Assembly: GCF_019649055.1 (NCBI RefSeq)
Contig: NW_026570342.1
Coordinates: 186,001-250,000 of the forward strand
Direction: 5' to 3'
Length of the DNA: 64,000 nucleotides
From: Paramacrobiotus metropolitanus
Lineage: Eukaryota > Tardigrada > Eutardigrada > Parachela > Macrobiotidae
The notes beneath the pieces are model-generated. The model had not been told where the DNA came from, searched no databases, and worked only from the letters and a program-made list of their open reading frames with translations. Position numbers and translations under genes: made by a program. Positions within the stretch are counted from its first letter, which is position 1, and each line of letters starts with the position of its first letter. This document shows positions 16,336 through 40,149 of the stretch, piece after piece.

Positions 16336-16459
16336 GCCGTATTCAGCAACCCGGCTACTACCGTGAACGGAACGCCGCCGCGCAGTAGTGCTTCTTCCTC
16401 GTGAAACCGATGCTGAACCAAAAAGAGGATATTCCCTGTTAGATTAAAACGAGCCGAAT

Positions 16460-16887: not shown

Positions 16888-17463
16888 TGACGTATGGGAG
16901 TAGGATCATACGCCGGATGTACGTACTGGATGATGACTGTCCGCCTTCCACCTGCAACATAACGGATAATCTAGTCAATCAATGCTGTGATTTGCTGTTC
17001 TCTTTTACTAGCGATGTATATGATGTCATAACGCGAAGTCTATATAAGTTCTTGTGATGCCTAATATCGGTATCAGTAGTCTGAGATTTACTTCTGACAC
17101 TGCTTTCTAATTACGATTTCCTAGTGTTGTGAACTGTGATGTGAATTGGATAAAGAGACAGCAATACTTGTTCCTACGGAAGTGCATAGTCGTTCCCGGA
17201 TTATCGCTTAGTATACAGGTTTGCTCGTGACACAATCGTCCTAGCTCTTGCCGATCCTCACAGGACTTACGACCGGAAGTTGTGATTAGCTCGTTCCTGA
17301 GGGATTCCTGATCTTCAGTGTTCCTGATTCGTTCGTCTTATTTCCACCTTAGTTCTTCTGTTACAGTTTGAGAGTACGAGTGCCTACCGATTGAGCATTA
17401 CAGGCGTGGAAGAGTAAAGATTGTTCATGGAGCCTTAACCGGCGTGAACGCTTATACACGACA
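16888..17463 (+). repeat. 5' LTR
   Basis: Starts TGACGTATGG and ends ATACACGACA. It is followed directly by the primer binding site. It differs from the 3' LTR only near 17098 (GACAC against GAGAC). Confidence 0.93.
17040..17047 (+). promoter_or_regulatory. LTR TATA box
   Basis: CTATATAA lies about 150 bp into the LTR, where a U3/R promoter is expected. The 3' LTR holds the same motif at 39722-39729. Confidence 0.55.
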
Positions 17464-17481
17464 TGGCGCCCACCGGTGTCT
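17464..17481 (+). other. Primer binding site
   Basis: TGGCGCCCACCGGTGTCT begins directly after the LTR. Its complement ends in CCA, as needed for a tRNA 3' end. I cannot name the primer tRNA. Confidence 0.7.
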
Positions 17482-18254
17482 TTTAATTTTCCCGATGTAA
17501 CAGAAAATTATTGGTGGAAAGTTTGATGGTAATTTACTGGTAAAAAGTGGTCCGTTCAGAAAGGCGTCGAACCGCAAAGGTACGCCGAAGGAGGTCAGCG
17601 TTCCTGATCTGGCCTAGTTAATTTATTTGTAGCGAGCTTCCTCGCAATTGTGAGCTTCCTCACTGGTGAGCTTCCTCGCCAATTAAATTAAATTTAATTA
17701 AATTGGACCGTAGGAATAAACAGTCGAAACCTTAAAGGTCGGCTGTGCTAAATAAACTAGTACTGTGTGGGTAATTTCCGGGTTGTCTGCGCAAAGCAGT
17801 AACCGCGGCGAATAAAGCGTAGTCTGCAGTGTCAGTGTACCTGGCCTGCAGATAGAGCAGATAGTAAGCACCGAGCCATTGTCAGTGGCCAGGTGAGATA
17901 ACGATCTCCAGCAGACTGATAAAGGCAAGCCGCAAGCGGTAGCCAGAATCAGCAGCCAGAGAGAGTTGACCGTGAAAAAGGTAAACATCGGCAAACGGTG
18001 ATTGACCTGTGAGTTTAATATTACAGCAGCACGCAAAGTGCAGCAGTGTAATTTTAGGAATTCATTTACAGTCGAAACCGCAAAGGTCGGCTGTTATTTA
18101 ATTATCACGGAACAATTCAAATCTTAAAGGAGGATTGGGAAGTGATTGTTATTGCACAATAGCAATAACGGTATTTGTCGGAATCAGTAGCACAATCGCT
18201 ACTGTAAGTATTATTTTAAATAGCCGCAAAGGTTATTTAAAATAAAAAGCAGAA
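17482..18254 (+). promoter_or_regulatory. Leader with a series of strong hairpins
   Basis: At least six hairpins are readable. Four share a loop core ACC(GC/TT)AAAGGT: 17563-17586, 17721-17745, 18069-18093 and 18212-18244. Two share an ACAAT loop: 18148-18169 (8 perfect pairs) and 18185-18204 (7 perfect pairs). The last hairpin ends 10 nt before the Gag start and pairs 11 outer bases perfectly. A short GAGCTTCCTC repeat occurs three times at 17636-17680. Packaging, dimerisation or translation control are candidate roles; none is shown. Confidence 0.65.
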
Positions 18255-21053
18255 ATGTCGGGCGGTTCGATTCCTAGAAATCGCCCACCACCGCGTAAGA
18301 TCCCAGATAACAAAGTGATTATTGGGGCGTACGATGGATCGAGAGCTCAGACAAGGTTCAAATTTAACGCAAAAGAAATCCCGTTGAATTTAATGTACAT
18401 CGCTCTTAATGTCGAACCACCAGAAGCACAAGATGCATTCTGTGGAAAGTCATGGATTGATTACCAGGAAATCAGGCGGTACTTAAATTCCAAAACGAGA
18501 TTACCAGCACATTTTAAACCTTGGATTGAGTACGAGGGATGTATCCCTGAAGCTTACCTGGACATTACTGATGAGCAGTTTAAAGCTGCCTTGCAGGATG
18601 CAAACAGGTGGCTGCCAGAATATACGGAAGATTTGAATAGACGAAGAGAGGCGGCTCAAGCCGCACTCACAGCGTCAAAAGCAACTGGAAAAACTCCAAA
18701 AAAACAGGCAGCAAATGAGCGCGTCACGCGCGGTGCCAAGGAGAGAATTCCAGCCCAGGCATCCGGTGCGATATTGGATGAACCCATATCGGAAACCCCA
18801 AGTGTGGCTGAGAGCCAAACAGAACCTCAGTCGTCCCAGTCAGACAATAATTTAATAGCGTTGGCGGCTGCGGATAAAGCAGACATATCCGAGGGATCAG
18901 AAACAAGAGCAAGCAAAAGTATTCGTGGTGGAACAATGACTTTCCACCCGGCACAGCTAAAATTACATAGTTTTGTGTCAGAAAAAGATTTTGAGCAACC
19001 AGATGAGGACTTCCTTACCCAAGCTAGGGAAGTTGATGAGCAGTTAGCTGCGGCAGAAACTGACCAGGACGTGGGCTTGATAGTCCGGCAAACTATGCCC
19101 GTATTGATCCAAAGTCTCCGCACGCTCATCGCATCTACAAAAACAAAAGTAGATGAAATGGGTAATACAATGTCTTTAGACGCTCGTGTAGATACGGAAC
19201 GAAACGAAAAATTGAAATTTCAAAACGATTTCAATGAAATGCGCATTAAATTTGAAAACGAACAAATAGAAAATGACAGATTGGCCAACGAAATACGCAT
19301 TGCGAATGATAATTTGCACACCTTAAGACAAGCCAACAGAAATGCGGAGGCCGCATTTAATGCAATGCAAGATGAGCGCGATACTTTAAAAGACACGAAT
19401 CGTAATTTTGAAAAACAGTTGGAAGATGCCCAGAGAGATCTTTCAAACGCGAAAGCTACGATTGATGGCCTCAGTGCACAACCAGCACCGGATTTAACGA
19501 AACAAATAACTGATTTGAACCAAAAGCTCTCGAAAGCTCAGAAAGATTGTAATTCTGAGAAAGATGCACATAAATTAACTAATAAAAATTTGACGGATGC
19601 ACAGAACCTGGTCACGAAACTTACCAAAGATTTGGATGACGAAAAGAAGCGGGCTAAAGATGCGGAAGACTCTCTACAGCGTGAACTCACACAAGCGAGA
19701 GTGCAGCTGAACAATAAGTCTTCAGTCGGCCCGATGCATATTCCCAAGGAAAAGGATGATGCGTCCCAAAAGGAAATTGAGAGATTGCAGGGTCTGTTGA
19801 CTATAGAGCGAGAGAATGTTCAAAAGGCCCAAAAGGAATTAAAAGATTCGAAAAAGGATAAACGATGTGATAATTGTGAGAACGCGATTCAAGCGAAAAA
19901 TACAGCACAGGCTGATGCATATGAAAAGTCTGAAAGGTCTAATCGGCTGTATGAAGAAAATGCGCAATGCCGAAAGGAATGGCATGAAAAACAAGACCAA
20001 CTTACCAAGATGGAAGTGGATCTAAAGCAAGCGTATGACGAACTTCGTCGGCTTCGAAATACAGATGCTGCTCTTGGCGGTGGTGAAGGATACTTTCAAA
20101 GGGAAGCGCCGGTAGCAACAGGAGACGTATTAAGTCCTTCCGCTTTTACACCATTTAATCCCCAAAATTTCTCGTCATATGTGGATCAGCCTATAGCTAC
20201 TGGCAGTAATCCGGCTGGCATCTTACGCAGGCCTAGGCAGGAATCACGAGTCGAATTCTCGGAGGGTCAGACCATGCTGCGTTCATCGTCAGAAAGTCAA
20301 ATTCCAAGGGAAACGGCACCTGCCAAACCGAGGAAAAATGGCTCAACAGACTTACGCCAGCAAATTCTGAAAAGAACAGCTGACGAATCTAGTCGCCAGA
20401 TGCGAGGAACAGAAAATAGGGACAGTTCCGATACAGAAAATGAATTGATGGATGATGCCCTGATGGAGGATGAACACCGTCGCCCCAGTAGTACGGCCAG
20501 CAATGAGTCTATGTCCAGAAATCCTCAGCTGGAGGAATGGCTGAATAAACAGACCCAAATTTCGGATAGAACGACACTTACACAAGAAAGCGTTGTTGAA
20601 CTTTTAGCGAAATTTGTGGAAAAGGACAGCGATAAAACGGTAGGTGGCATGAAGCTCCTTGCCTTTGACGATGCTCATCCAGAAAAAATTCAAAGATGGC
20701 TCATGAATGTTGAACAATGTAGAGCCACGAATAACTGGAATGATGAAACAACGTGTCGCAGAGTAATCGGTGCATTCACCGGTCCGTCTTTTCAATGGTT
20801 TGAAAAATTTTGGAAAGATAATAAAGGCAAATCATGGTCTGATTTCTTTAAGCCCGCTATTGTAGAGCACTTTAACGGCTCGCTGTCTAAGGCCGACATT
20901 CGTAGGAAAATGAATAATCGCAAATTAGAATTTTATGAACCAGTTCGTGCTTACCTGGATAGTTTCCTCCCATGGTTTGAGGAACTAAAAACATCGGATG
21001 AAGAGCAGGTGGAAGCACTCCTTGATGGCGCATCGACCGGCATGGTTCCGTGA
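18255..21053 (+). CDS. Gag-like structural protein with long coiled coil
   Basis: This 932-codon frame starts at the first ATG after the leader. Residues 1-140 form an unfamiliar globular region. About 300-605 is a long charged coiled coil full of K, E, D, Q and N heptads. A Ser/Glu-rich linker follows, then from about 805 a retrotransposon capsid-type domain (KIQRWLMNVEQCRATNNW, FQWFEKFWKDNKG). The frame stops inside that domain. Homology continues at once in the +1 frame of the next ORF, so the capsid tail and zinc knuckle are not in this frame. It would self-assemble into the particle. The coiled coil is unusual for Ty3-type Gag, which is typically 250-450 residues. Confidence 0.85.
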   Translation: MSGGSIPRNRPPPRKIPDNKVIIGAYDGSRAQTRFKFNAKEIPLNLMYIALNVEPPEAQDAFCGKSWIDYQEIRRYLNSKTRLPAHFKPWIEYEGCIPEAYLDITDEQFKAALQDANRWLPEYTEDLNRRREAAQAALTASKATGKTPKKQAANERVTRGAKERIPAQASGAILDEPISETPSVAESQTEPQSSQSDNNLIALAAADKADISEGSETRASKSIRGGTMTFHPAQLKLHSFVSEKDFEQPDEDFLTQAREVDEQLAAAETDQDVGLIVRQTMPVLIQSLRTLIASTKTKVDEMGNTMSLDARVDTERNEKLKFQNDFNEMRIKFENEQIENDRLANEIRIANDNLHTLRQANRNAEAAFNAMQDERDTLKDTNRNFEKQLEDAQRDLSNAKATIDGLSAQPAPDLTKQITDLNQKLSKAQKDCNSEKDAHKLTNKNLTDAQNLVTKLTKDLDDEKKRAKDAEDSLQRELTQARVQLNNKSSVGPMHIPKEKDDASQKEIERLQGLLTIERENVQKAQKELKDSKKDKRCDNCENAIQAKNTAQADAYEKSERSNRLYEENAQCRKEWHEKQDQLTKMEVDLKQAYDELRRLRNTDAALGGGEGYFQREAPVATGDVLSPSAFTPFNPQNFSSYVDQPIATGSNPAGILRRPRQESRVEFSEGQTMLRSSSESQIPRETAPAKPRKNGSTDLRQQILKRTADESSRQMRGTENRDSSDTENELMDDALMEDEHRRPSSTASNESMSRNPQLEEWLNKQTQISDRTTLTQESVVELLAKFVEKDSDKTVGGMKLLAFDDAHPEKIQRWLMNVEQCRATNNWNDETTCRRVIGAFTGPSFQWFEKFWKDNKGKSWSDFFKPAIVEHFNGSLSKADIRRKMNNRKLEFYEPVRAYLDSFLPWFEELKTSDEEQVEALLDGASTGMVP

Positions 21054-24000
21054 AATTTATAATGCGGCACCTAAAAATTATGCGGAATTTGAGAAGAAGT
21101 TACAGGAATGCGAAAAGTTATGGAAGCGCATGAATAAAGATAAGAAGACACCTGAATCAACTCAGAGAAATGCTCCTGCGGAGCCCAGAAGTGCCGGCAA
21201 TAATAATAATAATAATTCGAATTATGAAAATCGAGGCGGCCGCGGTGGCTCGTCGCAGAGAGGAAATTATTATTCGAACCGGGGAGGCCGCGGAAATTAT
21301 GGCAACAATCGCGGAGGATATTCACGTTCGTACACGGAGACAGTGATTCCTCAGCCGCAGAATTCGGTGGCTCCTGTGCAGCCTGTCCTGAATGTCCCCC
21401 AGCCGCAGTTTGTCCCTGTCCCGGTGTTCCAACAGCCACAATATGTTGAGCAACAACACCCGGTGCAATTTGCGCAGACTTTCCCTCAACCAATTCCTAT
21501 GCAGGCTCCTATGCCTGTCCCAGTTCAAATGATGAATCCAATGATGCCGGTTATGCAGCCGCAATTCCAACAACCGGTGCAGAATTTCGACCCGCAGTAC
21601 CAACAGGATGGCCCTGCGAATAATAACAATTATAATAGCGGTAATAATCGTGGAAATTACCGAAATAATAATAATTACCGCGGACGAGGTGGCTATAACA
21701 ACAATAATAATCGACAGCAAAATAACCAGAATTACCGGCAAAATCAGCAGGCCGGTAGTCAGCCTCCGTTTGATGAACGAAATATCCTGAAGGATAAATG
21801 GCGAACAAATCGCGGAGTCGAAATTTGCTTCCGCTGTCATGGTCTTCATCCTGCAGCTGGTTGTACGAATCAATTTGTACTTCCCCGCCAGTATGAGCCA
21901 TCCGCAGAATTATTGGCACGCTACAATAACCCGCAGCAGCAGATTAACATGATGGAGTTGGACTTACCGGCTGGTTTGTCTTCGCCGACGCCCCAGTGTA
22001 ACAAAATGGAAGTCCAGGACTTTTCGCAGTACCCTCTAGCGGATCACGTGTGCCTGTTGCCGACGCTGGATGCCCAGGCTTGGTATTCTGTAATTGACAT
22101 AAACTATCAGAAAGTGAAAACCATGCTAGATACTGGGTCTAGCATTTCAGTCATGTCTCTCAAAATGGCTAAAGATTTAAAATTAAATATTCACCGCTGT
22201 CCTGATCACATTAAAGGCAGGGTTGTACATACAGCTTACCAAGGGAGACAGCTGATTGAGCCGTTGTCGGTAGTGGTCACAATCCACGAATTCGGGATGG
22301 CTTTTGAGCACGCAATGCTTGTGAGTTCCACTTTCGATAGGGACCACGTTGTTTTAGGTTTAGACTTTTTAGCTACAAAGCCTTTTATACTAGATATGAA
22401 CACGATGACTTGGCGTCTCTCGCGTAGGCAGCCTAATGCACCGGCATTCTTACGTCGCGAAACTCACTTGATGTCGGACGTCATTAGGTCACACGATTTT
22501 GATCCGTTAATTCCTGTGGGAGTTAAGCCGTCCCCGTCAATCCCTGCGTTGATGTTGACAGAGCGCATTGGCGTCGCTAAAGAAGCAAAATTCGTGCCTT
22601 ATGTGTCGGCACATTTAATTTTGGCAAAAGCTGACCCAGAAATTTGTATCTTACACTTACAAAAGGCTAAGCAGGAGTGGCCGCGCCCAGTCGCGTCGCC
22701 ACCAGTGACAAAAGCGGCTGATGCCCCGGTGAAAACGGAAGTTAAAGAAACTACACCAGTCCAGGTAGCCCCGCTTAAAAAGGGATCCGATCAGCGTGAT
22801 GAAGAGTTTGTGCGTAGTGTAGTACAGGAGATGATTCGCCAATACCTCCCTAGAGCAGCTTCCGTCGCTGATGAACCAGTTCGTTCTGCTATTAAGCAAG
22901 AGATTAAGGTAGAGAAAAACCCAGAACCGAATCAAGTTCGTGGGGGAGGCGGTGAAACAATTGTAAATAGTATGCAGTCAAGTTCGTGGGGGAGAGAACA
23001 GGCGTCTTCCCAGCCGCCAATTAAAAAGGAAAAAGTTGTTCAGCCGTCACCGGCAAGCAGTCCGAGTACCTCGTCTCCGACATCGATTAGTCCTGTGCCT
23101 AACTCTGGCTCCAGTCAAGTTCGTGGGGGTGACGATCCCTTGCAACTTCCCATTCAGATTTCCTCGGTGGACGCAGTGCTGAAGCAGCATCCTGCGGCGA
23201 AGTATCTTTATATGGGCGTTTTAGAGAAATCAGCGAAGGTTGTTGAATGTCTTAGCATGGATAACAAATTGCTTAATGTTATACCGGTTGAGCGCGACCG
23301 CAGAGACGTCGATGAAATCCACGACTATCCGTCTTATATGGCACGCAATCCAGAATTGAAGAAATGGATGACACCGATGGACAGGCCACAGGATAAACAG
23401 CTGTTTCCTTCAGAAAAAAGATTCCGTGATCCGCAGTTCTGGCGCGAAACTCAACAGCAGTGTGTTGATAGCCGGATGTGGTACAAAATGTACAAGAAAC
23501 CGTCGCACGCTAATACGAATTTTACCAAATACGAAATCAACAGATTTGTGATTTGTGAAGGGATATTGTGCAGAGTACCTGATCATTCTGGTGCATGTCC
23601 GAGAATTTACGTACCGCACCAATGGCGACAGAAATTAATTGCCTGCTTCCACGAAATTCTTATTCATCGGCAAGCGTACGGCCGGCATGAAAAGCTATAT
23701 CCGTACTTGGTGAAATTATTTTACTGGCCGGACTGTATAATAGAAATTGAACGGTACGAGAAGAACTGCGACGTGTGTCGAAACTCGATTAATGATCGCC
23801 GGCATTTTGAAACCTTGAAACGCACGGAGCAATTAAACGCACAGAAAGCTACAGGAAAACGTAAAGTTACCTTCTCCGTGGATAACCCGGCGCCAGCAGG
23901 AGAATTTGAAAATGGTAGCTTCGTTCCTGCTGATGGAATGAAACCCATTAATATCGGCCCATGTCCAGTCTCCTACGAAGATAAACAAGCGGAGAAGCAA

Positions 24001-25335
24001 AGGGAAATAAATTCTCAAATGATTAGCAACTCACCGCCGCCGAAGCCGTCTGAGTTCGTTTCGGAGGATGTCAGATCTACCTACGATGTTGCGACAAAAA
24101 TTAATATTAATGAACAGTGGGAAATCTGGAATGACATTCAGAGACAGAAGGCATTGACTGAATCTGCAGCTGTTAGTCCAGCACGACCCACCGTGGGAAA
24201 TTACGAACCATCACCGGAAGGTTCGGGAAGGAATTCCCCTAGGCGTAAAAAGTCCAGTTACAGCCGTAGAATTCGGCGGGAATACGCCGAGCGTGAGGCC
24301 GCAAGCCAGATGTCCGCCGAGACAGTGCAGCCGGCACCGGTGTTGCAACAACCGACGGCTAAAAATTTGCCCAAACGGTCTCAGGACGTCCGGGAATCCA
24401 CTGACATCCCGGCATGCGTCTATTCGAAGGATGCCATCGAGCTCGCGTACAGGGACGCCCATCTGAAACAGGCACAAGCACAGGTTGAGGTTAATTCGGT
24501 AGAACATGATATTTACCGCTTCGAGCCAGAACCCGGTCCGATTGATTGCTTCAAGATGGAGCTTTTCCCAGCCTCGCCGGTTATAATTCAGCCCCATTCA
24601 CAGGGAATTATTCGTGCAACGACGTCGATGTCTGACGAACAGTTCATGGAATTTCAGGACGAATACCTGTACACCCAGCCGTTTCTCTACGAAGGAAAAA
24701 TACCAGAGTCAAATAAAAACGCCGTATTACTCGATGGCGTCTTAACGCTAAATGAGTATGGTAATTGCCGAGTCTGCGTTCTTAACGTTTCTGACAAACC
24801 GCTCGTTTTGAATGAAGAAACCAACCTTGGCGAAGTCGCGCTTGTGGACGCAGTGTACCAAATGGACTCTCCGGAGTTCCAGGAGAATTGTCAAGAGGCA
24901 ATTGGTGGCATCTCCAGTGTGGAAGAAGGTGTCTCGACACCGGAGAAAATAAATGAATGCGTGGCTATGCAGCTGCCGCCACCCGCCGTTAGTGTCGTTG
25001 ATCCTGAAACAGAGGAAACTTTCACAAAAATTAAAGTGGGAGACATTTGCCCTAGCAAGGAGGAACTGAAAGCTATATTTTACCAGGCGAAATCAGTCCT
25101 ACCGACTAAAGCGCGTCCTGTGGGATGCTGTACCATTTATGAGCACTCCGTGGACACAGGTACGAGTTTGCCGGTCAGAACCCCTCCGTATCGGACATCG
25201 TTTGAAGACCGCAAATGGCTCCAGGCTAAAACCCAAGAAATGATTAAAGACGGTATCATTGAGCCAACAAATTCGGCGTGGGGCAGTCCCATCTGCATAG
25301 TGAAGAAGAAGGAAAATCAACCGTGGTTGGCTTAA
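20998..25335 (+). CDS. Gag tail, zinc knuckle, aspartic protease, integrase-type zinc module, start of RT
   Basis: A long open frame overlaps the Gag frame by 56 bp. In order: rest of the capsid domain; RGG/Asn-rich and Pro/Gln-rich nucleic-acid-binding stretch (residues 60-270); zinc knuckle CFRCHGLHPAAGC at about 277-289, a CX2CX3HX4C variant; aspartic protease with DTGSS near 378; a long Ser/Pro linker; an H2C2 zinc module near 880-930 with two His and CDVC; another linker; and the first part of a reverse transcriptase (SAWGSPICIVKKKEN near 1430). An H2C2 module in front of the RT is not the usual Ty3 order. The frame then runs into a stop because RT sequence has been lost. The ATG at 20998 may not be used; entry by +1 frameshift is possible. 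Confidence 0.8.
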   Translation: MKSRWKHSLMAHRPAWFREIYNAAPKNYAEFEKKLQECEKLWKRMNKDKKTPESTQRNAPAEPRSAGNNNNNNSNYENRGGRGGSSQRGNYYSNRGGRGNYGNNRGGYSRSYTETVIPQPQNSVAPVQPVLNVPQPQFVPVPVFQQPQYVEQQHPVQFAQTFPQPIPMQAPMPVPVQMMNPMMPVMQPQFQQPVQNFDPQYQQDGPANNNNYNSGNNRGNYRNNNNYRGRGGYNNNNNRQQNNQNYRQNQQAGSQPPFDERNILKDKWRTNRGVEICFRCHGLHPAAGCTNQFVLPRQYEPSAELLARYNNPQQQINMMELDLPAGLSSPTPQCNKMEVQDFSQYPLADHVCLLPTLDAQAWYSVIDINYQKVKTMLDTGSSISVMSLKMAKDLKLNIHRCPDHIKGRVVHTAYQGRQLIEPLSVVVTIHEFGMAFEHAMLVSSTFDRDHVVLGLDFLATKPFILDMNTMTWRLSRRQPNAPAFLRRETHLMSDVIRSHDFDPLIPVGVKPSPSIPALMLTERIGVAKEAKFVPYVSAHLILAKADPEICILHLQKAKQEWPRPVASPPVTKAADAPVKTEVKETTPVQVAPLKKGSDQRDEEFVRSVVQEMIRQYLPRAASVADEPVRSAIKQEIKVEKNPEPNQVRGGGGETIVNSMQSSSWGREQASSQPPIKKEKVVQPSPASSPSTSSPTSISPVPNSGSSQVRGGDDPLQLPIQISSVDAVLKQHPAAKYLYMGVLEKSAKVVECLSMDNKLLNVIPVERDRRDVDEIHDYPSYMARNPELKKWMTPMDRPQDKQLFPSEKRFRDPQFWRETQQQCVDSRMWYKMYKKPSHANTNFTKYEINRFVICEGILCRVPDHSGACPRIYVPHQWRQKLIACFHEILIHRQAYGRHEKLYPYLVKLFYWPDCIIEIERYEKNCDVCRNSINDRRHFETLKRTEQLNAQKATGKRKVTFSVDNPAPAGEFENGSFVPADGMKPINIGPCPVSYEDKQAEKQREINSQMISNSPPPKPSEFVSEDVRSTYDVATKININEQWEIWNDIQRQKALTESAAVSPARPTVGNYEPSPEGSGRNSPRRKKSSYSRRIRREYAEREAASQMSAETVQPAPVLQQPTAKNLPKRSQDVRESTDIPACVYSKDAIELAYRDAHLKQAQAQVEVNSVEHDIYRFEPEPGPIDCFKMELFPASPVIIQPHSQGIIRATTSMSDEQFMEFQDEYLYTQPFLYEGKIPESNKNAVLLDGVLTLNEYGNCRVCVLNVSDKPLVLNEETNLGEVALVDAVYQMDSPEFQENCQEAIGGISSVEEGVSTPEKINECVAMQLPPPAVSVVDPETEETFTKIKVGDICPSKEELKAIFYQAKSVLPTKARPVGCCTIYEHSVDTGTSLPVRTPPYRTSFEDRKWLQAKTQEMIKDGIIEPTNSAWGSPICIVKKKENQPWLA

Positions 25336-26145
25336 CGAAGAGTTCCCGTTTCAATACATAAAGTCTTACCTTTTGGAATGAAGGACGCGCCTTCGGCTTT
25401 CCAGCGCGCCATGGATTTGACGCTTGCGAACATGAAGTGGAGGAACGTGTTGGTTTTATTGATGACATTATTGTCTTCAGTAAAAACCTGGCAGATCATA
25501 TGCGTGATTTACAGGAGCTCTTTTTGGCTCCAGGAATGGACCATTAATCCTGAAAAGACAGAATTATTTGTTAATTCGATTACCTTTTTTGGGTCATACG
25601 GTCGACCAGTTCGGTATAAGTACGGATCCAGAGAAGATCCAGGCGGTTAAGGAATTTGGCCTATAAGACAAAAAAAAAGACATATTACGGTTCCTAGGTA
25701 TGGTAGGATATTATCGTCAATTTATTAAGAACTTCAAGAAATCGCTGAGCCGCTTCAAAAACTAATTCCTAAAAGAGTTACCTTTGAATGGGGAACGGAT
25801 CAGTGCAGGTCTGTGGAACAATTGAAGGAGGCCTTGGTGACGGCGCCGGTCCTGGCCCGTTATGACCCGGAGGCTTTGTCGCGTGTTATTGTCGATGCAA
25901 GTACTATTGCTGTGGGTGCAGTCCTTATGCAATGTCCCAAGGATAAACCGACGGATGTGCCGACAAATTGGCGTCCTATCGCGTATCTAAGCCGCAAGTT
26001 GACTGAAACGCAGAAAAGGCTCTACTTCCCTACTGAGCTTGAGGCCTATGCAGTTATTTGTGCTCTTAAAAAATGGAAGCATTATTTGTCGGACTACCAG
26101 TTTGAAGTCCAGACCGATCACCAGGCACTGGTCTTTCCTAAATAA
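25336..26145 (+). pseudogene. Broken reverse transcriptase and RNase H
   Basis: RT motifs resume after a gap. LPFGMKDAPSAFQRAMD appears about 60 bp after the break, so roughly 55 residues that include the first catalytic aspartate are deleted. FIDDIIVFSK, the Y/F-X-DD box, is in another frame. Further single-base shifts and stops follow. The RNase H part (25813-26145) is open and reads well, with ARYDPEALSRVIVDASTIAV, LEAYAVICALKKWKHYL and TDHQALVF holding the expected acidic residues. The copy cannot make an active RT by itself. Confidence 0.8.
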
Positions 26146-27250
26146 TATGCGTGATGCCGCTGGCCGCCTGGGCGCTGGGCGTTGTATATCCAGCAATTTA
26201 ATACTAAGCCTGTTCACATACCTGGCAAAGAGAACGTTATTGCTGACGCCTTGAGTAGAAACCAGGAGAGCAACCGGAACCCGACTCTGACGACTCAGAC
26301 ATCGAGTTTGACTATCCGGCAAACACCCTTTCGCCGGTGATGCCGCGATGATCGAGTGTTGTTTCGCGATCCTGGAAAGAGATTATGTGGATATCCGCTT
26401 TGAGATGATGTCGGCCAGTTAAAGCCATTCCAGAGGAAGACATGAAAGCCTTTGATGAGGATAAGGTGCAGAAGTTAATTACTGACGATAAGGCTTCATA
26501 CTGGGCTGAAGAGCAGTCTCGCGATGCGCGAATTGTCCGATGGCGGCTGCTCCTAGAAAATAAAAGGAAAAGATGTCAGAGCACGAGAAATTACACCTAA
26601 ATAAATTTAGTAGTGAAACAGGGCGTTGTTTATTATAAGTTCGAATTAAACCGGAAGATCTATTGCATGTATGTACCTGTTCACTGGCGGCTTCAGTTCC
26701 TTCAGGATAACCATGATTCCCCGTTAGCAGCACACTTGGGCGTCCTGGCCACCTATAAAAGGATGTACAAGTATTTTTATTGGCCCCGTATGTTCGAGTC
26801 TGTTAAAGTTGCTGTAGCCTCCTTGCCCGGCGTGCCTTGCACAAATCCTCTTGCTACGGCACCGGCCAGGTGCTCTCATCAATCCACACGTTCCTCCTCA
26901 GTTGGTTTGGGCAATCGACGTTGCTCCGGCTCTCAACGACGGAATCTGGAGCAAAAACATAAATTAGATATGCAGTATCGATGTCAGGTAGACAAATACA
27001 TTGTTGGCTGAGGCGTCAGTTGAGTAGAAATGGCGCGCCGACATGTGGCCGTTCATAATCTCGATTATCGCACGAGCACTTCCTGCCATTCGAGTCCTTT
27101 AGGCATGCAGCTGTGACCTTGGATTTACGCTGAATATCTGGATAACCAGATGGAAGCGGTTCCATTTGTGCGTTAAATGTAGTAAAAATAACCCGCTCCG
27201 GGCGTGTGGTGAAACCTGAGTTGCTCGAGATTTATTAATCAGATTCATCG
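26146..27250 (+). pseudogene. Degraded integrase with second H2C2 module
   Basis: A frame at 26613-26830 has a normal integrase zinc module (HDSPLAAHLGVLATYKRMYK, then YFYWPRMF). Its two cysteines (CPAC) lie just after a shift into another frame. A short piece resembling the start of the catalytic core (WAIDVAPALNDG) follows. Beyond it I cannot recognise the D,D35E core, which is absent or too broken to read. The sequence before the module (SYWAEEQSRDARIVRWR) matches the position of the linker seen before the other two modules. Confidence 0.65.
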
Positions 27251-31167: not shown

Positions 31168-31350
31168 ATGACTCCTCCAGCTTCGGAGAAGAAGAAAGCG
31201 GCCAAGCAGGCGCTGGAGAATCGTGTTACGGCATGGACGGAGACTGTGGCGCAGAAGATGGCCGACCGTACTGAAGCTCAGCAACGTTTTGAGCGTGGCA
31301 GAATTGCCGTCAAGGAGGCTGTATCCAAGCTCCCTCCTAAGATTTCTTGA
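31168..31350 (+). CDS. Accessory gene 3: small basic coiled-coil protein
   Basis: A 60-residue frame starting ATGACTCCTCC. It is almost entirely helical and charged (ASEKKKAAKQALENRV, then MADRTEAQQRFERGRIAVKE). No family recognised. It could be one exon of a larger gene, since its neighbours are spliced, but I see no strong donor. It lies 550 bp upstream of the tRNA-like array on the same strand. Its small size keeps confidence moderate. Confidence 0.45.
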   Translation: MTPPASEKKKAAKQALENRVTAWTETVAQKMADRTEAQQRFERGRIAVKEAVSKLPPKIS

Positions 31351-31894: not shown

Positions 31895-31968
31895 AGAGCG
31901 ACCCCGCTAGTATAGTAGAGGCTTCCGTTGCTTCGTCATTGGAGGTCGGAGGTTCCAGTCCACATAAA
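31895..31968 (+). ncRNA. tRNA-like unit 1
   Basis: A-box-like TAGTATAGTAGAGG at 31909 and B-box-like GGTTCCAGTCC at 31951, with a TTTTTT run at 31994. The stretch resembles a eukaryotic tRNA-Asp D-arm and T-arm, but I cannot fold a clean cloverleaf. Confidence 0.5.
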
Positions 31969-32125
31969 AACGCGATTTTGTAAATATCCTCATTTTTTGG
32001 TCTTTATTTCATGAATCGTTACATTCTTATTCGTGGGATTTAAAATAAGGAATATTGGGTGAATCGCTGTTGAGAGGTGTTAAAATGAACACTGCAAGCG
32101 GTGTTTTAACATTATTTTGTCGATG

Positions 32126-32210
32126 ACTCCTGTAGTCGAGTGGTCCAGTAAAGAGGACAATACCAGGCGAATCCGTTTACCTGTTGCTGGTCCTGGGTTC
32201 CAATCCCTAA
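32126..32210 (+). ncRNA. tRNA-like unit 2
   Basis: A-box-like TAGTCGAGTGG at 32133 and B-box-like GGGTTCCAATCCC at 32195. It is followed by TTCTTAAAACCTTCTTTT, a 3' block shared with unit 3. The longer spacing fits a type II (long variable arm) tRNA shape. Confidence 0.5.
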
Positions 32211-32370
32211 AAATCAAAAGCATTTTCTTAAAACCTTCTTTTCGTGTCTAAACTTTTGCATTTGGTTGTACTTACACATTCGTTGTGATACCGTTAATTC
32301 CTTATCAGTTTTCAGCGAGCGGCACATAGTTGTACAGCCTTTCCCGTGCGGATTTTCGTGTTTTGCTGTG

Positions 32371-32455
32371 AGACTTCGTAGTGTAGTGCTTGTCCGCCTT
32401 GTCTCCGCTACGACTCGGTCAATTTAGGGCCTTGGGTTCGAAACCCTTGCAAGTA
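32371..32455 (+). ncRNA. tRNA-like unit 3
   Basis: A-box-like TAGTGTAGTGCTTG at 32379 and B-box-like GGGTTCGAAACCC at 32434, a good match to GGTTCGANNCC. Followed by TTCTTAAAACCTTC and a run of nine T. Confidence 0.55.
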
Positions 32456-32587
32456 ATGCACATTTCTTAAAACCTTCTTTTTTTTTGCGTTTTATAATGT
32501 CACAGTACCATCGAATACGTATTACGGTTGACCGCTGTAATTTTATGTTCCTCTCCGATGAGCGAATTCAAAAATAACTGTCGTAGA

Positions 32588-32668
32588 ACAGCGTAGTATA
32601 GTGCATTGCACCGTTGAACTGCAGCAAGGGGGAAATGAAACGGTTGCGGGTTCAAGTCCCTTACAGCT
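32588..32668 (+). ncRNA. tRNA-like unit 4
   Basis: A-box-like TAGTATAGTGCATTG at 32594 and B-box-like GGGTTCAAGTCCC at 32648, with a T6 run near 32693. The 5' flank GAGCGAATT and CGTAGAACAGCG is shared with units 7 and 8. Confidence 0.55.
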
Positions 32669-32845
32669 AATTTGCAATTTTGAGAAACTTACTTTTTTCG
32701 TTCTATATTTTTGTTTTCGTCTTGGGAAAAGTATTGTCAACAGTCCCCAGAATGTCAGAATTAAACTCAAAGAGCTGGGCGTAAAATTGTATACACACTC
32801 AATGGTTAACATTGCACTTGGCCGTATGTTTGTCTGTATTCGAAT

Positions 32846-32935
32846 GACTTTGTAGTTCAGTGGCTATGAATGATGGCCATTCGCCTCATGTTCTACCTCC
32901 TAAACGGCTAGTCTTAATCTCAGGGTTGCATGCTG
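32846..32935 (+). ncRNA. tRNA-like unit 5, weak B box
   Basis: A-box-like TAGTTCAGTGGCTA at 32853, a typical tRNA D-arm start. The B-box position holds AGGGTTGCATGC, which is poor. A T6 run follows near 32951. Confidence 0.4.
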
Positions 32936-33078
32936 CATGTTAAAAAACTACATTTTTTCTCCCCTACATTTTTGTACTTTTGTGGGATCAAGAGTAATCG
33001 TTGGTGCCTTATTGCAGTAGGGTTAAATATACACGACATGGCGCTTCCGGTGTTGAATCTAACTCGGCTAAAGCGTAG

Positions 33079-33157
33079 AGCACCTCGTGGCGTAGTGGCT
33101 AGACTGAGAATCCATACCGGCCCGCTTCTCGCAAGTCTAGAGTTCGAATCCCTAAAA
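33079..33157 (+). ncRNA. tRNA-like unit 6
   Basis: A-box-like TGGCGTAGTGGCTAGA at 33088 and B-box-like GAGTTCGAATCCC at 33140, an exact match to the GTTCGAATCC core. Four of five T-stem pairs can form. T5 run near 33184. Confidence 0.6.
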
Positions 33158-33286
33158 GTTAATTCGTGTAATTTAAAACCCTCTTTTTCGGTTTTATATT
33201 TTTATATCAATATGCAGTATTATGTTAGCTTCGAGATCGCTAATTTTACGGTCACTCCCGACGAGCGAATTTTAAGTTTAACTTCG

Positions 33287-33368
33287 TAGATTGTAGTGGC
33301 GTAGTGCACTGAACTGTTGAACCACAACAACGGGTGCAATGAAGGTTGCGGGTTCGAGTCCCCTATAA
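33287..33368 (+). ncRNA. tRNA-like unit 7
   Basis: A-box-like TGGCGTAGTGCACTGA at 33297 and B-box-like GGGTTCGAGTCCC at 33350, an exact GGTTCGANTCC match. The 3' block TTTCTGAAACCTTACTTTT with a long T run parallels units 2 and 3. Confidence 0.6.
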
Positions 33369-33502
33369 TTAATATGCATTTTCTGAAACCTTACTTTTTT
33401 TTGCTTTTGGGAATTTTTTACTGTTATTGTGAAATATTGCCGTTGACGGAATGAATTTTATAGTCACGGTGATCGTGAATTTTCACTATATCGTGAATTT
33501 TC

Positions 33503-33625
33503 GTAGAACAGCGCCTCTAGTGATTACCAAACTAAAAGTAAAATGTGGCATAGCCATGCTAGCGTATGGGCAAGAGCAGGATTTAGTTGTCCACCTAGAT
33601 GCAAGGTTCAATCCTGCGAGCATAC
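33503..33625 (+). ncRNA. tRNA-like unit 8
   Basis: A-box-like TGGCATAGCCATGCTAG at 33546 and B-box-like AGGTTCAATCCTG at 33604. The 5' flank CGTAGAACAGCG repeats that of unit 4, but more sequence separates it from the A box. T5 run near 33660. Confidence 0.5.
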
Positions 33626-33664
33626 AAATTTTGCAAGTTTTAAACGTTCCTTTCAATTCTTTTT

Positions 33665-34082: not shown

Positions 34083-35455
34083 TTAGTCCAGATCTAGATT
34101 CTCCTTCGCAGTCTTCAAGTTCGCAAGACGTTGTTCTAGAGCCTCACGGATATACGCGATATGTTTAGCATCCATCGTCGCTCGAGCCTTCAGCGTGTTT
34201 ACCAGCGCCTTGCAGTTATCCATAATATCCTTCTCTCGTTCAACTTGTTCTAGTAATTTGTCGATTGCGTCGGGCTTTTTAATAGCATCCGGTTTTGCAG
34301 TGCTCACTTCATTGTCAGGCTTTTCGGCCTTCTCCTTGGTCTTCTGGCCTTTCTTTTCGGTATCCGTATTCTTTGATCGGGGGACATATTTAGGACGGCC
34401 GCCCATAGCTTTTAGTTGAGTGAGCGTGATAATTGGTTCTCTCTCAATGCGTCCGTCTTTGCTAGCCCGGATTACCAGATTTACGTTGGTGGTGTTGTTC
34501 TTCTCGGGCTCGATTGCGTCCAGCCGCTCCATGACGCCATCGACAACCAAATCCCGTCTTGTCCCACGTAACCAAAGCTGCAATCGGCGACATGCTGTTT
34601 GGTCTCCTTGCCGTTTACGATAACCTTCATAGTGCCCATTTTGATATCTACAATTTAAATCACTCTGGTTAAATTACGACAGACAACGTGATTTCCAGTA
34701 GGCGGCGTTGCTGTGCTATTTTAAAGTGTAAGTATCAAGAATGCTACTTCGAAAATACAGAAATACTCACTGATGGTCTGGGCCAGAGTGGTGCAGAGAC
34801 AACAGCCGCGAATGCTTCGCAGCCACAGGTCGATGCAGCTGTCCACGAAAAGATTCCCGTAGATGACGACGACATGTTTCTGGTTAACCAGTTGGCGCAG
34901 CCCGCGCTCCAGCCAGTAGTCCACGTCCTGCAGATGTACGTCGAACGTACAGATCCAGTGTTGGATTTCTGTGCGTGACATGGCATATCGGCCGTGGTAG
35001 AGGATTACTCGAATCATCCGACGAAACTTGCTAGTTGTGTCAATTACTTTCGTCTCTGCATCGCGGTTATTTCTCACTTCCTCGGCCACCTCCAGCACGA
35101 AACGTCCATCGCGGCTCATCTTCTTGAGCAAGATTCCAGCATTAATAGCGTCACCAAGGAAGAAATCTACTCGTTCTTCCGTGAAATCATCATGCTTTTC
35201 CACGATGAATTTCTTGATTGATGACATGTCCACATAATATCCAGTAATGTCAGCCTCAAGGATGCACGCGTGGGCTGCCGTATGCATTACCAATTGTCGA
35301 CGGTTTCGGATGGTTTCGTTTGGCTGTAGAGGCTCCGCCATGGCAAACTGAACCGATTCGCGAGTTCGTCCCTTCCAGTATTCATAGTGGGCAATCGCAT
35401 CTGTTTCGAGCGAAGGTAACGGCTCTCCAGTTGGCCCCACAGGCTGTGCTGACAT
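34083..35455 (-). CDS. Accessory gene 4: antisense, spliced, winged-helix-like and coiled-coil protein
   Basis: This gene runs against the element. Exon 1 is 35455-34771 and exon 2 is 34647-34083. The 123-bp intron has donor GTGAGT and acceptor TTGTAG and joins at phase 1. Exon 1 has two similar helical blocks, each helix-turn-helix then a short beta pair (SIKKFIVEKHDDFTEERVDF and TEIQHWICTFDVHLQDVDYW), which look like winged-helix DNA-binding folds. Exon 2 starts with MKVIVNGKE and ends in a charged coiled coil. In exon 2 the frame moves as if one G were missing from the run at 34553-34555. Accessory gene 5 is divergent from it, with 613 bp between. Nuclear or chromatin role is inferred only from the fold guess. 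Confidence 0.65.
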
Positions 35456-36068: not shown

Positions 36069-37594
36069 ATGTCGCCTCCCGCAAAGAAAGCGACTGCGAG
36101 GAAGACTGTGTCTCGTACACCGCGCCCGAGTCGTGCAACAGCAGGGCTAAGTTTTGGTTATTCTCCGGACAGCGATGAAGCCCGTTCTTCATCGCGTGTC
36201 ACTCGATCTCGCGTCTCTCGTCGTACTTCCGCGCAACCAGTGTTTTCTGCGCAATCTTCTGGGTCATCGGGATCGGTGAGTGAAGCAGAGGCTCAGCAAC
36301 CTTCAACGAGTTGGGCAGATGCAGTAGTCAATGCTTTGCAGCGCCGATATGATGCACAGCGGCGACGCACAATCTTACGACGCAATGCTGCTGTGGTTCG
36401 CCGCCAGGCCCGCCGAGGATTATTCCCTGCTAGCCCTGACGTTGAGATTCGTCAGCCGTCACCAAAGAAATTGCGGACGCAGGCTGAAAGACAGCTGGGT
36501 ACTCCAGACCTGACTGAAGAAGAGCCATCGTCTTCCGAGACTCCGTCTGTAAAAGCAAAGCGAGGTATTGCCGTGTTTGCCGTTGTTTTACTGTAATGTT
36601 GTGGTTTTTCACAAGTCTGAATTCTACCTGTGGTGTTTTTCGTTACTACACTCATGAGATACGACAATCGTTGTCATGTCGCTTCATTTCTGTTTTGTTG
36701 CTTCTTCTGCCAGTTTTGCAGTTGATCATGGTTAAGCTTTGCTTGCGTTCATTGTCGTTTCAACTGTGTTTAGACGAGGAACATCTGCGCAAAGGCGGAA
36801 TTCTTTATGTGCCGCATAACCCGGATGCACCACGGCCGGTCTTCAAGACCAAGCAGACGGCTCGCAAACGAGCGCATTCCGGAGTGTTTCCAAGAATGGC
36901 TATTGCGGACAAGCAGGGTGAGATGGCAATTACAAAAGCCTATTTTTCCGGTTTAAATCGCTTTCATCCTCGCTTTCCGGAATTGTATTTGTCTCACTTC
37001 TTATACCAAAACGGAGTATTAATCAATCGTTATGATTTGTGTGTGGCTACTCGGAAATTACCTTCGTTAATTGCGTTAGAGCTGCGTCGTCAATATCTCT
37101 ATTTACATCCTGTTTTTGTTGGATTGTTTAAAGAAATCGCCAATCGACAGCAGGCGGATGCGGTCGCGCGCCAGATGGTTGCTGATGCTGGTGCTATGGC
37201 GAATGCGGAACCGCAGCCATCCACTTCTGCTGGACCATATAACTTTCGCACTCGTGGGCAAAAGCGCAAGTACAAGGAGGTTTCACCGTCCTCGTCTTCG
37301 GCGCCAAGCGAAGTATCTGTCTCGGATGATGGTGAAGATCGTGAGGATCCTTCGGCGGTGTTATCCCCTGAGCAGAATGCGGATGTCGAAGCTGACGAGA
37401 ATGCAGATATGGTGGTCGATTGTGACGATGATGATGGATCTGATTTTGAGAAAATGGATGTTGATCCGCTGCCGTCTCTGCAGCCAGTTGCCCCGGCTGT
37501 AATGCCTATTCCGGCTGTTGCGCGTGAGGATTCACCTGAAATTGCGGAACCAGCAGTTTTTGGTCAGCATCAGCCGCACTCCGATGAACTGTAA
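36069..37594 (+). CDS. Accessory gene 5: basic N-terminus, acidic C-terminus, spliced
   Basis: Exons 36069-36564 and 36774-37594 are joined by a 209-bp intron (donor GAG|GTATTG, acceptor TTTAG) at phase 1. The result is 438 codons with no stop. The N-terminal third is Ser/Arg/Lys-rich (PPAKKATARKTVSRTPRPSR), like a nuclear or nucleic-acid-binding tail. The middle has a compact domain (HLRKGGILYVPHNPDAPRP, then SLIALELRRQYLYLHPVF). The C-terminus is strongly acidic (VVDCDDDDGSDFEKMDVD). A clean splice in a long unbroken frame argues that it is under selection. No family recognised; a weak likeness to accessory gene 1 is noted. Confidence 0.7.
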
Positions 37595-37972: not shown

Positions 37973-37981
37973 GTATAAAAT
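37973..37981 (+). promoter_or_regulatory. TATA box of accessory gene 6
   Basis: GTATAAAAT lies about 155 bp upstream of the ATG at 38134. It suggests that this gene has its own promoter inside the element, apart from the LTR. Confidence 0.5.
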
Positions 37982-38133
37982 CACTTGCGCGTAGTGTGCA
38001 GAAATCGGCATTGTGGATTTTCGTTTCGGCCTTCTGGCATGCTGGATTTTCACTGTGTGTAGACTGTGATTTTGACGCTTTTTCTCCTTACACTTTTCGC
38101 GTTAAAAGGTCACTAGTTTTCTTTCGTTTGGGC

Positions 38134-38928
38134 ATGCCGCCTATTGATCCTAACCGTGCTTTTGACAAGTTAGTAGACGCCATCTTCCATTCGTCTTCTA
38201 ACCAGCAGCAACAACAGTATAATGCCGGTTATAATCACCGAGGAAGGGGTGGAGCCCGTGGTGCTTACCGTGGCAACTTTCGTCCGTACGGCCGAGGAAA
38301 TCATAGGAATTTTGGAGACAATAACTTGCGTCGTGGAAACGATCATTGGCGTCGTAATGGCCGACCTCTGGGCGCACCGGAAGTTATTGAAGTACCTGAT
38401 GGAGACGCTCACCCAGTTGCTCCAGTGGAAGCTGCCGCCGCAAACATGGAGGTTGACGACCCGGGCAACCAAGCAGCGAATGCACCGAATCCGGTCCAGG
38501 GCAACGGAAATGTGGCTGCAGGTGAGCCCAATGGTTTCAACCCTGCTGTCAATCTACATGGCCCACCAGCCTTGAATGCCGTTGTCGTTCCTCCGGCTGT
38601 CATTCCACCTGTGCAGGCCCCGGCTAACGCTGAATTTCCCGGTTTGCCACCAAATGTTTTGCCGCTACCTGAAGTACCGATTGTCCGCGATGCCCGCGAC
38701 CGTTCTCCAGCTGATCGCCCACGTGCGCCGTCTGCGCCTTCCGGTCCTGTTGGATCAGCCGAGCATAATTTTGTGCCTGGCTATTTGGCCCAACAGCAGC
38801 AGCGGGAATTGGATGCTGATCGCCGACGTCAGATGGCTGCGGAAGTTTCTCGCCGTTTGGATGCCGCTGCAGCGTCTGGCTCTGGCATTACTGGTCTTTT
38901 TTCATTGGCCCCCAGTGCTGGCAAGTAA
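38134..38928 (+). CDS. Accessory gene 6: RGG/Gln/Pro-rich nucleic-acid-binding-like protein
   Basis: A 264-residue frame starting MPPIDPNRAFDKLVDAIF. It has a Gln run, then an RGG/Asn box (YNHRGRGGARGAYRGNFRP), an Ala/Pro/Asn-rich disordered middle and a helical, charged end (QQQQRELDADRRRQMAAEVS). The RGG/Asn box is like the one in the Gag tail of the same element (near 21210-21340), so shared origin or shared RNA-binding role is possible. An in-frame upstream extension to 37930 exists; I prefer the ATG after the TATA box. There is no membrane segment, so it is not an envelope. Confidence 0.7.
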   Translation: MPPIDPNRAFDKLVDAIFHSSSNQQQQQYNAGYNHRGRGGARGAYRGNFRPYGRGNHRNFGDNNLRRGNDHWRRNGRPLGAPEVIEVPDGDAHPVAPVEAAAANMEVDDPGNQAANAPNPVQGNGNVAAGEPNGFNPAVNLHGPPALNAVVVPPAVIPPVQAPANAEFPGLPPNVLPLPEVPIVRDARDRSPADRPRAPSAPSGPVGSAEHNFVPGYLAQQQQRELDADRRRQMAAEVSRRLDAAAASGSGITGLFSLAPSAGK

Positions 38929-39558
38929 CCTTGACTCACCTTTGACATTGACCTTGGTTGCTTTCTTTGATCTCATATTATTACTGGCTTTGTTGCACTG
39001 CCTTGACTTTTGATTTTGTTGTCTTTTACTGGTTTACATTATTGTATCAGTGCGCTGGTAGATTGCACTCACCATTTTTGATACGCTTATTTGTAGCTTG
39101 TTTGTTGTTGTTGACATTTGTTGCTATACGATCTATTTGTAGTACTCGAGAATTCGTAAGAATACTACTGGTTGGTTGATTTGGTGCTTTTGCTGTTTAA
39201 TCCATAGTTCTACAGAATCGCACACAATCACATTTAAGATTTTACTTTCACAATTAATAAAGCTTTATGCCGTATACTGTACATAAAACACCATCTAAAC
39301 TCAAGCGGCACCATGTCAGTAATTCATAGTTCGCCTTCCTGGATCCTTGGACCTCCGCCCTGCCAAACCCGTGGACTTCCGGATGCCTCTTCGCCAAGGA
39401 TTCCACACACTAACTCTCTGGAATCGCGGCGTACAGTCACATTGGGCATCGGATGGACGCGTGGATTGTGCGGTGGATCGGGATCAGGATGGGTGGAAGT
39501 GCACAATCGCACTGGAATGTTGCGGGATGGATTGTTTACTTTGGCACGGCCAAGCATC
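38929..39558. other. 3' non-coding region of the element
   Basis: T-rich sequence with no supported gene, leading to the G-run before the 3' LTR. AATAAA occurs near 39257. Confidence 0.4.
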
Positions 39559-39569
39559 GTTCGTGGGGG
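39559..39569 (+). other. G-run at the 3' LTR border (polypurine-tract candidate)
   Basis: GTTCGTGGGGG lies directly before the LTR start. It is short and not fully purine, but its position is right. The same 16 nt across the junction (GTTCGTGGGGGTGACG) also occurs at 23119-23134 in the pol ORF. Confidence 0.55.
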
Positions 39570-40145
39570 TGACGTATGGGAGTAGGATCATACGCCGGAT
39601 GTACGTACTGGATGATGACTGTCCGCCTTCCACCTGCAACATAACGGATAATCTAGTCAATCAATGCTGTGATTTGCTGTTCTCTTTTACTAGCGATGTA
39701 TATGATGTCATAACGCGAAGTCTATATAAGTTCTTGTGATGCCTAATATCGGTATCAGTAGTCTGAGATTTACTTCTGAGACTGCTTTCTAATTACGATT
39801 TCCTAGTGTTGTGAACTGTGATGTGAATTGGATAAAGAGACAGCAATACTTGTTCCTACGGAAGTGCATAGTCGTTCCCGGATTATCGCTTAGTATACAG
39901 GTTTGCTCGTGACACAATCGTCCTAGCTCTTGCCGATCCTCACAGGACTTACGACCGGAAGTTGTGATTAGCTCGTTCCTGAGGGATTCCTGATCTTCAG
40001 TGTTCCTGATTCGTTCGTCTTATTTCCACCTTAGTTCTTCTGTTACAGTTTGAGAGTACGAGTGCCTACCGATTGAGCATTACAGGCGTGGAAGAGTAAA
40101 GATTGTTCATGGAGCCTTAACCGGCGTGAACGCTTATACACGACA
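39570..40145 (+). repeat. 3' LTR
   Basis: Same length as the 5' LTR and one substitution by eye. Followed by the CAAG target duplication. Confidence 0.93.
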
Positions 40146-40149
40146 CAAG

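Follow-up and report, generated by a model that had tools for sequence, protein, structure and literature searches.

Giant gypsy-like long terminal repeat (LTR) retrotransposons are represented by Burro in planarians and Ogre in plants; in the parts of PMC6431247 that deal with them, Ogre has one or two extra open reading frames (ORFs) and Burro has accessory ORFs. The BIR, ankyrin, BCL2, and MATH domains of Burro, together with an env-like region, are placed there largely in one giant polyprotein, and the size of Ogre is attributed in large part to its long LTRs (1.9-6.5 kb, with an interior of 11-13 kb). In turn, the relevant sections of PMC4992882 describe a type 2 RNA polymerase III (Pol III) promoter that drives a microRNA cluster in bovine leukemia virus (BLV), as well as a 3' LTR that drives antisense RNA; the cluster and antisense transcription of BLV are also the subject of PMC7252678, and HBZ of human T-cell leukemia virus type 1 (HTLV-1) is named in PMC4992882. 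The Helenus/Ajax TRIMp3 elements, short and non-autonomous, carry a tRNA-like sequence within the LTR, as presented in an excerpt of PMC10886601. The element described here occupies positions 16888-40145 of a 64,000-nucleotide stretch (the window) of the tardigrade Paramacrobiotus metropolitanus (NW_026570342.1, C122:186001-250000). It is a single insertion of a Ty3/gypsy LTR retrotransposon with six accessory genes under purifying selection, and we consider it quite probable that this copy, itself defective, belongs to a giant Ty3/gypsy family that was active until recently and is equipped with a complex-retrovirus-like regulatory module and Pol III RNAs.

Gypsy is named among the LTR groups in a survey of tardigrade transposons, and the words giant and Paramacrobiotus do not occur in the portion of that survey available to us (PMC11071193). 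Retrotransposons are likewise unmentioned in the main text of the P. metropolitanus transcriptome paper, as far as the accessible part of it goes (PMC11191345). In the portions of the open-licence literature that were accessible, no description of this element or of its combination of features was found.

Insertion Site and Copies of the Element

The two LTRs of the window copy (16888-17463 and 39570-40145, both on the + strand) are 576 bp long, have TG...CA ends, differ by one substitution over their entire length, and enclose an interior of 22.1 kb. They are bordered by a target-site duplication (TSD), CAAG, which can be read directly at 16884-16887 and 40146-40149. A first-pass annotation, made from the sequence of the window alone, had proposed both the LTR pair with its single difference and this duplication, and both are found at exactly these coordinates. 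It had also proposed that one gene was interrupted, with parts of it on both sides. By eye, both flanks are indeed parts of one interrupted reverse transcriptase (RT)-like repeat, and unoccupied paralogous sites on C42, C21, C54, and C105 align across the insertion point with 93-95% identity, the first three of them carrying about 330 bp extra immediately to the left of that point. Because four paralogous places align across the insertion point, the target was a repeat rather than a host gene.

The genome searched comprises 169.8 Mb in 533 contigs, and a search with the LTR gave at least 42 matches (40 of 190 candidates were scored). Ten LTR pairs, including that of the window, are spaced 23.3-24.2 kb apart, and every one of them holds the accessory block, interrupted by local gaps but with its order unchanged. 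Thus, the block that the first-pass annotation had assigned to these LTRs recurs in nine further pairs, and these copies track the window element from LTR to LTR in blocks (longer than 150 bp) of 72-99% identity, again with local gaps. The 300-bp flanks of the nine copies match neither each other nor the 600 bp beside the window copy, in a comparison that covered all flanks except the missing left flank of C337, where the copy begins at the contig end. Exact 4-bp TSDs are present in seven of the nine copies that have both flanks, including that of the window; the two without an exact duplication, C54 and C37, have 7 and 25 LTR substitutions, respectively, and the LTRs of the C337 copy differ by 10. 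The LTR pairs of C10, C52, and C180 are identical, and few substitutions separate those of the window and C123 (one each), C67 (two), and C14 (three). The family moved recently. The insertion on C52 adjoins, on its left side (L027 1-300), a frame that by eye resembles a protein-kinase exon.

The accessory ORFs A or D lie within 24.5 kb of 36 of the 42 LTR matches listed, four of these 36 forming a rearranged cluster on C338. The match on C260 is accompanied by RT only, with no A or D match within 24.5 kb, and five others (C17, C5, C39 twice, and C22) have no A, D, or RT match among the selected feature matches compared; a degenerate A fragment (33% identity, two stops) is found 4.8 kb from the C17 LTR. 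At C39:25130-34995, an LTR pair only 9.9 kb apart has a primer-binding site (PBS) and no RT, A, or D match, and, judged from such matches alone, it is probably an internally deleted derivative. The possibility raised in the first-pass annotation, that other copies with these LTRs would lack the cargo, is thus reduced to this one short pair versus ten full pairs that carry it. The association is also seen from the side of RT. The best 55 of 107 RT matches (all with at least 85% identity) were set against 69 of the 96 A matches and 69 of the 122 D matches; for 51 of them, an A match is found at up to 8 kb or a D match at up to 13.5 kb, on either side. The four outside these limits are located on C260, C76 (506781), C266, and C364; those of C266 and C364 are on the minus strand near the contig start, and on C76 fragments of A are found at a distance of 3-6.5 kb.

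The Gag-Pol Core

The 13 nt of the PBS (17464-17476, + strand) are complementary to host tRNA-Lys(CUU) at its 3' end, with CCA added. This was the sole tRNA compared, and two genes with the matching 3' end were located with a pattern derived from the PBS and confirmed by ARAGORN. All features of the core that follow are on the + strand. The gag region (18255-21053) consists of a long N-terminal part, in which a coiled-coil match stays below the threshold of Pfam, and a C-terminus that is gag-like by eye; it has no Pfam gag match and no significant match in the PDB. The next frame (20989-25335) includes a region that by eye is RGG-rich and nucleocapsid-like, the protease (22096-22374, Pfam), an extra H2C2-like zinc stretch (23611-23784), and the start of RT. 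The H2C2-like stretch, positioned upstream of RT, remains below the Pfam cut-off (E 0.002-0.008). The rest of RT, RNase H (25729-26145), and the integrase H2C2 domain (26673-26819) are found in a disrupted segment, 25336-27053.

In C52, gag and pol form one frame of 3,517 codons; in four other matches this frame has 3,444-3,610 codons. The Pfam domains of the C52 pol (protease, RT, RNase H, integrase H2C2, and integrase core) follow the order of Ty3, and Ty3 is also the best PDB match of the RT. The ratio of nonsynonymous to synonymous substitution rates (dN/dS), taken from the best alignment per copy with at least 60% covered, is 0.007 for RT, 0.010 for the protease, 0.035 for the H2C2-like stretch, 0.07-0.10 for gag, and 0.165 for the C-terminus of pol. 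In the window copy, pol is shifted out of the frame of gag, the frame 20989-25335 being continuous with gag in C52. In addition, about 18 bp at 25318/25336 take the place of about 0.19 kb of the RT of other copies, and about 72 bp at 27053-27126 that of about 0.85 kb of their integrase region.

Accessory Genes

Seven long ORFs recur among the copies, with median pairwise dN/dS values of 0.05 (A), 0.17 (B), 0.08 (C), 0.08 (D), 0.14 (E), 0.18 (F), and 0.09 (G); a short one, H, with 60 codons, has a value of 0.095 and no stops in 10 copies. These medians were calculated for nine or 10 copies with at least half of the ORF covered, from pairs with dS above 0.02, and an out-of-frame control gave 1.5 and 19 stops. 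As the seven long ORFs and the short one include one spliced pair (D and C) and one probably spliced pair (E and F), they amount to six genes, A, B, H, DC, EF, and G, the same number as in the first-pass annotation. The six genes are under purifying selection, rather than being passive cargo. The 11 kb that the first-pass annotation described as non-retroviral cargo is a block shared by the copies; its interpretation is largely right, and is refined here in that the block consists of selected genes, one of them antisense, with one spliced and one probably spliced pair of ORFs.

Gene A (28310-29116, + strand) encodes a 282-residue protein in C337, and its N-terminus is out of frame in the window copy. 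The main exon of gene B (29908-30531, +) exists in two types within one family, the N-terminal halves of which are 34-37% identical and the C-terminal halves 66-82%, a pattern that suggests recombination. Gene H (31168-31350, +) is followed, beyond the array described below, by the antisense gene DC, composed of exon 1 (ORF D, 34771-35455, -), an intron with GT...AG ends (34648-34770, -), and exon 2 (ORF C, 34086-34647, -), the frame of which is disrupted in the window copy. DC is one spliced antisense gene, and its splice sites are backed by a database gene model: the NCBI protein LOC129598761 of P. metropolitanus joins D and C. Its first 229 residues are 100% identical to the translation of C128:335237-335923, and the remainder is 95% identical right beside it, in a match that extends into the intron. 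A GT, with variable bases after it, directly follows D in all eight copies (of 10) that match the donor pattern.

Downstream of DC, on the + strand, exons E (36069-36564, basic and Ser-rich) and F (36774-37594, acidic) are probably joined by splicing as well, with a donor in eight of 10 copies. In C52 and C37, both ORFs also continue without a stop. The last gene, G (38134-38928, +), encodes an RGG-rich protein, and a homologue of it is present in the related locus L044.

No accessory protein (A, B, DC, EF, G, or H) gives a match above the cut-offs in Pfam and NCBIfam, the best E values for H being 0.034 and 0.016, respectively, in agreement with the lack of any recognisable family in the first-pass annotation. 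Profile searches of the PDB with A, D, F, B, and G gave no significant match. Among 5.8 billion proteins, D has two relatives, both from P. metropolitanus (8000 candidates scored per search), and A has none (7391 candidates scored). A and F do not match each other directly, and are only weakly bridged by the protein in the EF position of L044. The absence of an envelope gene from the first-pass annotation is also borne out, as hydropathy over 19 residues does not exceed 1.32 in any accessory protein, and these proteins have no transmembrane-like stretch and no significant Pfam match.

The tRNA-Like Array

An array of about eight tRNA-like units of the Pol III type (31900-33650, + strand) is located between the sense genes A, B, and H and the convergent antisense gene DC. 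Each unit has an A box and a B box and usually a run of T; the A boxes are found near 31908, 32133, 32379, 32594, 32853, 33088, 33297, and 33561, the last of them by eye, and the B box of unit 5 is degenerate. A strict A/B-box pattern has 11 starts, corresponding to six units, within the array, whereas the opposite strand and the remainder of the window contain none; in 200 shuffled versions of the region, the mean is 0.015 and the maximum two. Three to six strict units are present in each of the nine further copies. The array, one of the proposals of the first-pass annotation, is therefore real, lying far above shuffled sequence and recurring in every copy.

For units 1-4, 6, and 7, the mismatch between copies is 0.050 in the boxes, 0.057 in the unit interiors, and 0.139 in the rest of the array, and only 0.7% of shifted box sets are equally conserved. 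Units 4 and 7 are 72-78% alike. When unit 3, the sole unit searched genome-wide, was compared with 60 A and 58 D matches, all of the best 40 of 45 candidates were found within 7 kb of A or D, which rules out dispersed SINE (short interspersed nuclear element) copies for this unit. From these comparisons, the promoter and the body of the units are constrained, with a tRNA or hairpin shape unsupported.

A further feature of the array is an invariant block (33023-33054, +) that contains, at 33028-33054, the sequence TATACACGACATGGCGCTTCCGGTGTT. It resembles the junction of the LTR end and PBS at 17453, TATACACGACATGGCGCCCACCGGTGTC, in that 11 nt identical to the LTR end are followed by a PBS-like stretch. 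This internal junction is present in nine of 10 copies, C37 being without that stretch. Of 2208 windows of 27 nt, scanned over columns with at least eight sequences, 51 are invariant, and all of these belong to five blocks, one of which contains the junction; it therefore seems to be kept for use, and it may serve as a primer site. A pattern search for a host tRNA that would fit the internal site gave eight matches, none of them tRNA-like by eye. PBS-like motifs inside the array region occur in two families, at 33028-33054 of the window and at 1765 and 2938 of L044.

Related Families in the Genome

By eye, the RT matches fall into groups with approximately 95-100%, 85-91%, 63-69%, and 56-59% identity, and a smaller number have 41-51%. 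RT is 87-91% identical at eight loci (C248, C9, C13, C80, C72, C2, C38, and C94), where A and D occupy the same places but are only 31-36% identical, C2 having no A match. Exceptions at an RT identity of 88% are C333, with A at 90%, and C1:1506077, with A at 66% and D at 71%, and several loci with RT of 96-97% have D of 63-71%. Within the family, the rate of change of D is about 15 times that of RT (dN 0.062 versus 0.004), and an exchange of modules is therefore unnecessary for explaining the divergence of A and D.

A more distant arrangement is seen in L044 (C101), which includes antisense D, the EF-position protein, and G, in that order. Its kin on C80, C347, and C292 have RT 68-69% identical, about 11 kb before D; the RT of L044 itself lies outside the scored matches. 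The EF-position protein of L044 shares a stretch with gene A and weakly resembles F. Three strict tRNA-like units are present on the + strand of L044 and none on the other strand (mean of 0.02 and maximum of one in 100 shuffles). An internal motif of this group, TGGCGCCCCCCGGT, occurs at 20 sites on 17 contigs, with D positioned 2.1-4.2 kb downstream of 13 of them, and C292 has a sequence resembling an LTR end plus PBS (GCACGACA/TGGCGCCCACCG) about 8 kb before RT. As the L044 group also carries them, the array and the internal primer-like core appear to date far back in this lineage.

Proposed Mechanism and Alternative Explanations

We propose that Pol II, starting from the LTR, would produce the genomic RNA along with spliced messages, and that the antisense DC message would start from the 3' part of the element. 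Pol III would transcribe the array through its internal A and B boxes, yielding short sense RNAs, made between the converging sense and antisense units, that would work on behalf of the element. The accessory proteins, including the RGG-rich G, the basic and acidic EF, the antisense DC, and others, would manage the fate and expression of the RNA. Transcription by Pol III, a function of the resulting RNAs, and these roles of the proteins are all predicted from sequence features.

Several observations weigh against this proposal. The window copy is defective, with both RT and integrase broken. Conservation within the array is uneven, with mismatches of 0.129 in the B box of unit 6 and of 0.095 and 0.103 in the A box and interior of unit 2. 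Seven folded units are no better than shuffled ones (z of -0.64 to 1.78, with none of the seven below -1), which gives no support to hairpin precursors, and a reading of the units as true tRNAs was set aside, given no call in the array by ARAGORN with default settings and no Rfam match. The mitochondrial mode of ARAGORN made four calls, none of them within the array, and the 73 and 161 'tRNAs' called in 25 kb with lowered thresholds were treated as noise. The acceptor pattern is matched in nine of 10 copies for DC and in four of 10 for EF, and, since the patterns themselves contain AG, such matches say nothing about the AG. For none of the accessory proteins is a fold recognised; a resemblance of D to linker histones is weak (Pfam E 0.07, profile comparison probability 1.6%).

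Alternatively, the array might bind TFIIIC without being a source of functional RNA, insulating the sense unit from the convergent DC gene or forming a road-block between the two. Its placement between A, B, and H and DC and the unremarkable folds of the units agree with such a role, and a section of PMC4992882 describes how Pol III and Pol II collide at the cluster of BLV. A pure binding site, however, has no need for unit interiors nearly as conserved as the boxes, and this constraint leads us to favour regulatory RNAs and to regard the insulator as a possible, less likely explanation. Comparable weight, well short of an even chance, can be given to a fusion of two LTR elements, in which the internal junction, the antisense gene, and the EF-G block would be the remains of the second one. 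The LTR-like 11-mer in the array, with its adjoining PBS-like stretch, is what such a fusion might leave, and the stretch shared by gene A and the weakly F-like EF-position protein of L044 could be viewed in the same way. On the other hand, the position of the junction in one of the five blocks that hold all of the invariant windows points to its being kept for use, and the PBS-like core of L044 shares no 11-mer with the LTR-end region of C292.

We can also speculate, with somewhat greater doubt, that the family possesses an independently evolved regulatory system of its own, in which a Pol III RNA array is combined with the protein of a spliced antisense gene and with an internal element that resembles a second primer site. 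The latter might permit reverse transcription of the 23-kb RNA from two starts or pairing of genomes for packaging, with the participation of the tRNA-like RNAs. An endogenous virus without env, similar to errantiviruses, is improbable as an alternative to a retrotransposon: gag-pol with accessory genes does resemble complex retroviruses, but the accessory proteins have no transmembrane-like stretch, and viral contigs contain no relative of D. Capture of host DNA, and likewise the join in the assembly or the two separate insertions considered in the first-pass annotation, have nothing beyond the unusual size in their favour and can be dismissed: the block is carried at many loci, including identical-LTR pairs, its order is the same throughout the ten insertions, and there are TSDs and unoccupied sites.

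Other Features of the Window

Inverted repeats of 73 nt, 90% complementary, at 48847-48919 and 52778-52850 flank an ORF with a match to the DDE_3 transposase (E 1.2e-14) and mark a probable separate DNA transposon. A 159-bp direct repeat, 91% identical, is found at 6957-7115 and 16180-16338, 9.2 kb apart, and a 29-bp tandem repeat family with seven in-register copies is located at 63654-63984.

Comparison with Known Systems

If the proposed reading, that of a giant Ty3/gypsy family with a regulatory module and Pol III RNAs, is true, accessory proteins, antisense genes, and Pol III small RNAs, all regarded as typical of complex retroviruses, arose in a Ty3-type element of a tardigrade. The excess length consists of selected genes and not of filler, and, with many copies available, some of them very recent, the roles of the accessory proteins, of the tRNA-like RNAs, and of a possible second site of priming in the copying of a very long RNA can be tested.

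The element shares with Ty3/gypsy (Metaviridae) its LTRs, a tRNA PBS, a 4-bp TSD, the order of protease, RT, RNase H, and integrase, and an RT for which Ty3 is the best match. It differs from them in its size of 23-24 kb, in the H2C2-like stretch before RT, in the six accessory genes, and in the tRNA-like array. In contrast to retroviruses and errantiviruses, no envelope gene was detected in it. Compared with Burro, as presented in the parts of its description cited above, the accessory genes are separate, one of them is antisense, and the array is added; BIR, ankyrin, BCL2, and MATH domains of the Burro type were not found by Pfam in the C52 gag-pol frame (searched in two pieces) or in the accessory ORFs. 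Compared with the LTR and interior lengths given there for Ogre, its LTR is short, at 576 bp, and its interior, at 22.1 kb, is long. With TRIMp3, as excerpted, it shares a tRNA-like Pol III sequence inside an LTR element, whereas the tardigrade array is internal, has many units, and belongs to an element with its own gag-pol. The likeness to BLV and HTLV-1, within the sections of the sources cited, lies in the combination of a type 2 (tRNA-like) Pol III promoter sequence in an LTR element with an antisense gene, and is here a likeness at the sequence level. Unlike BLV, the tardigrade element has no detected env, its units do not fold into hairpins, its host belongs to another phylum, its pol is of the Ty3 type, and its use of Pol III is a predicted one.

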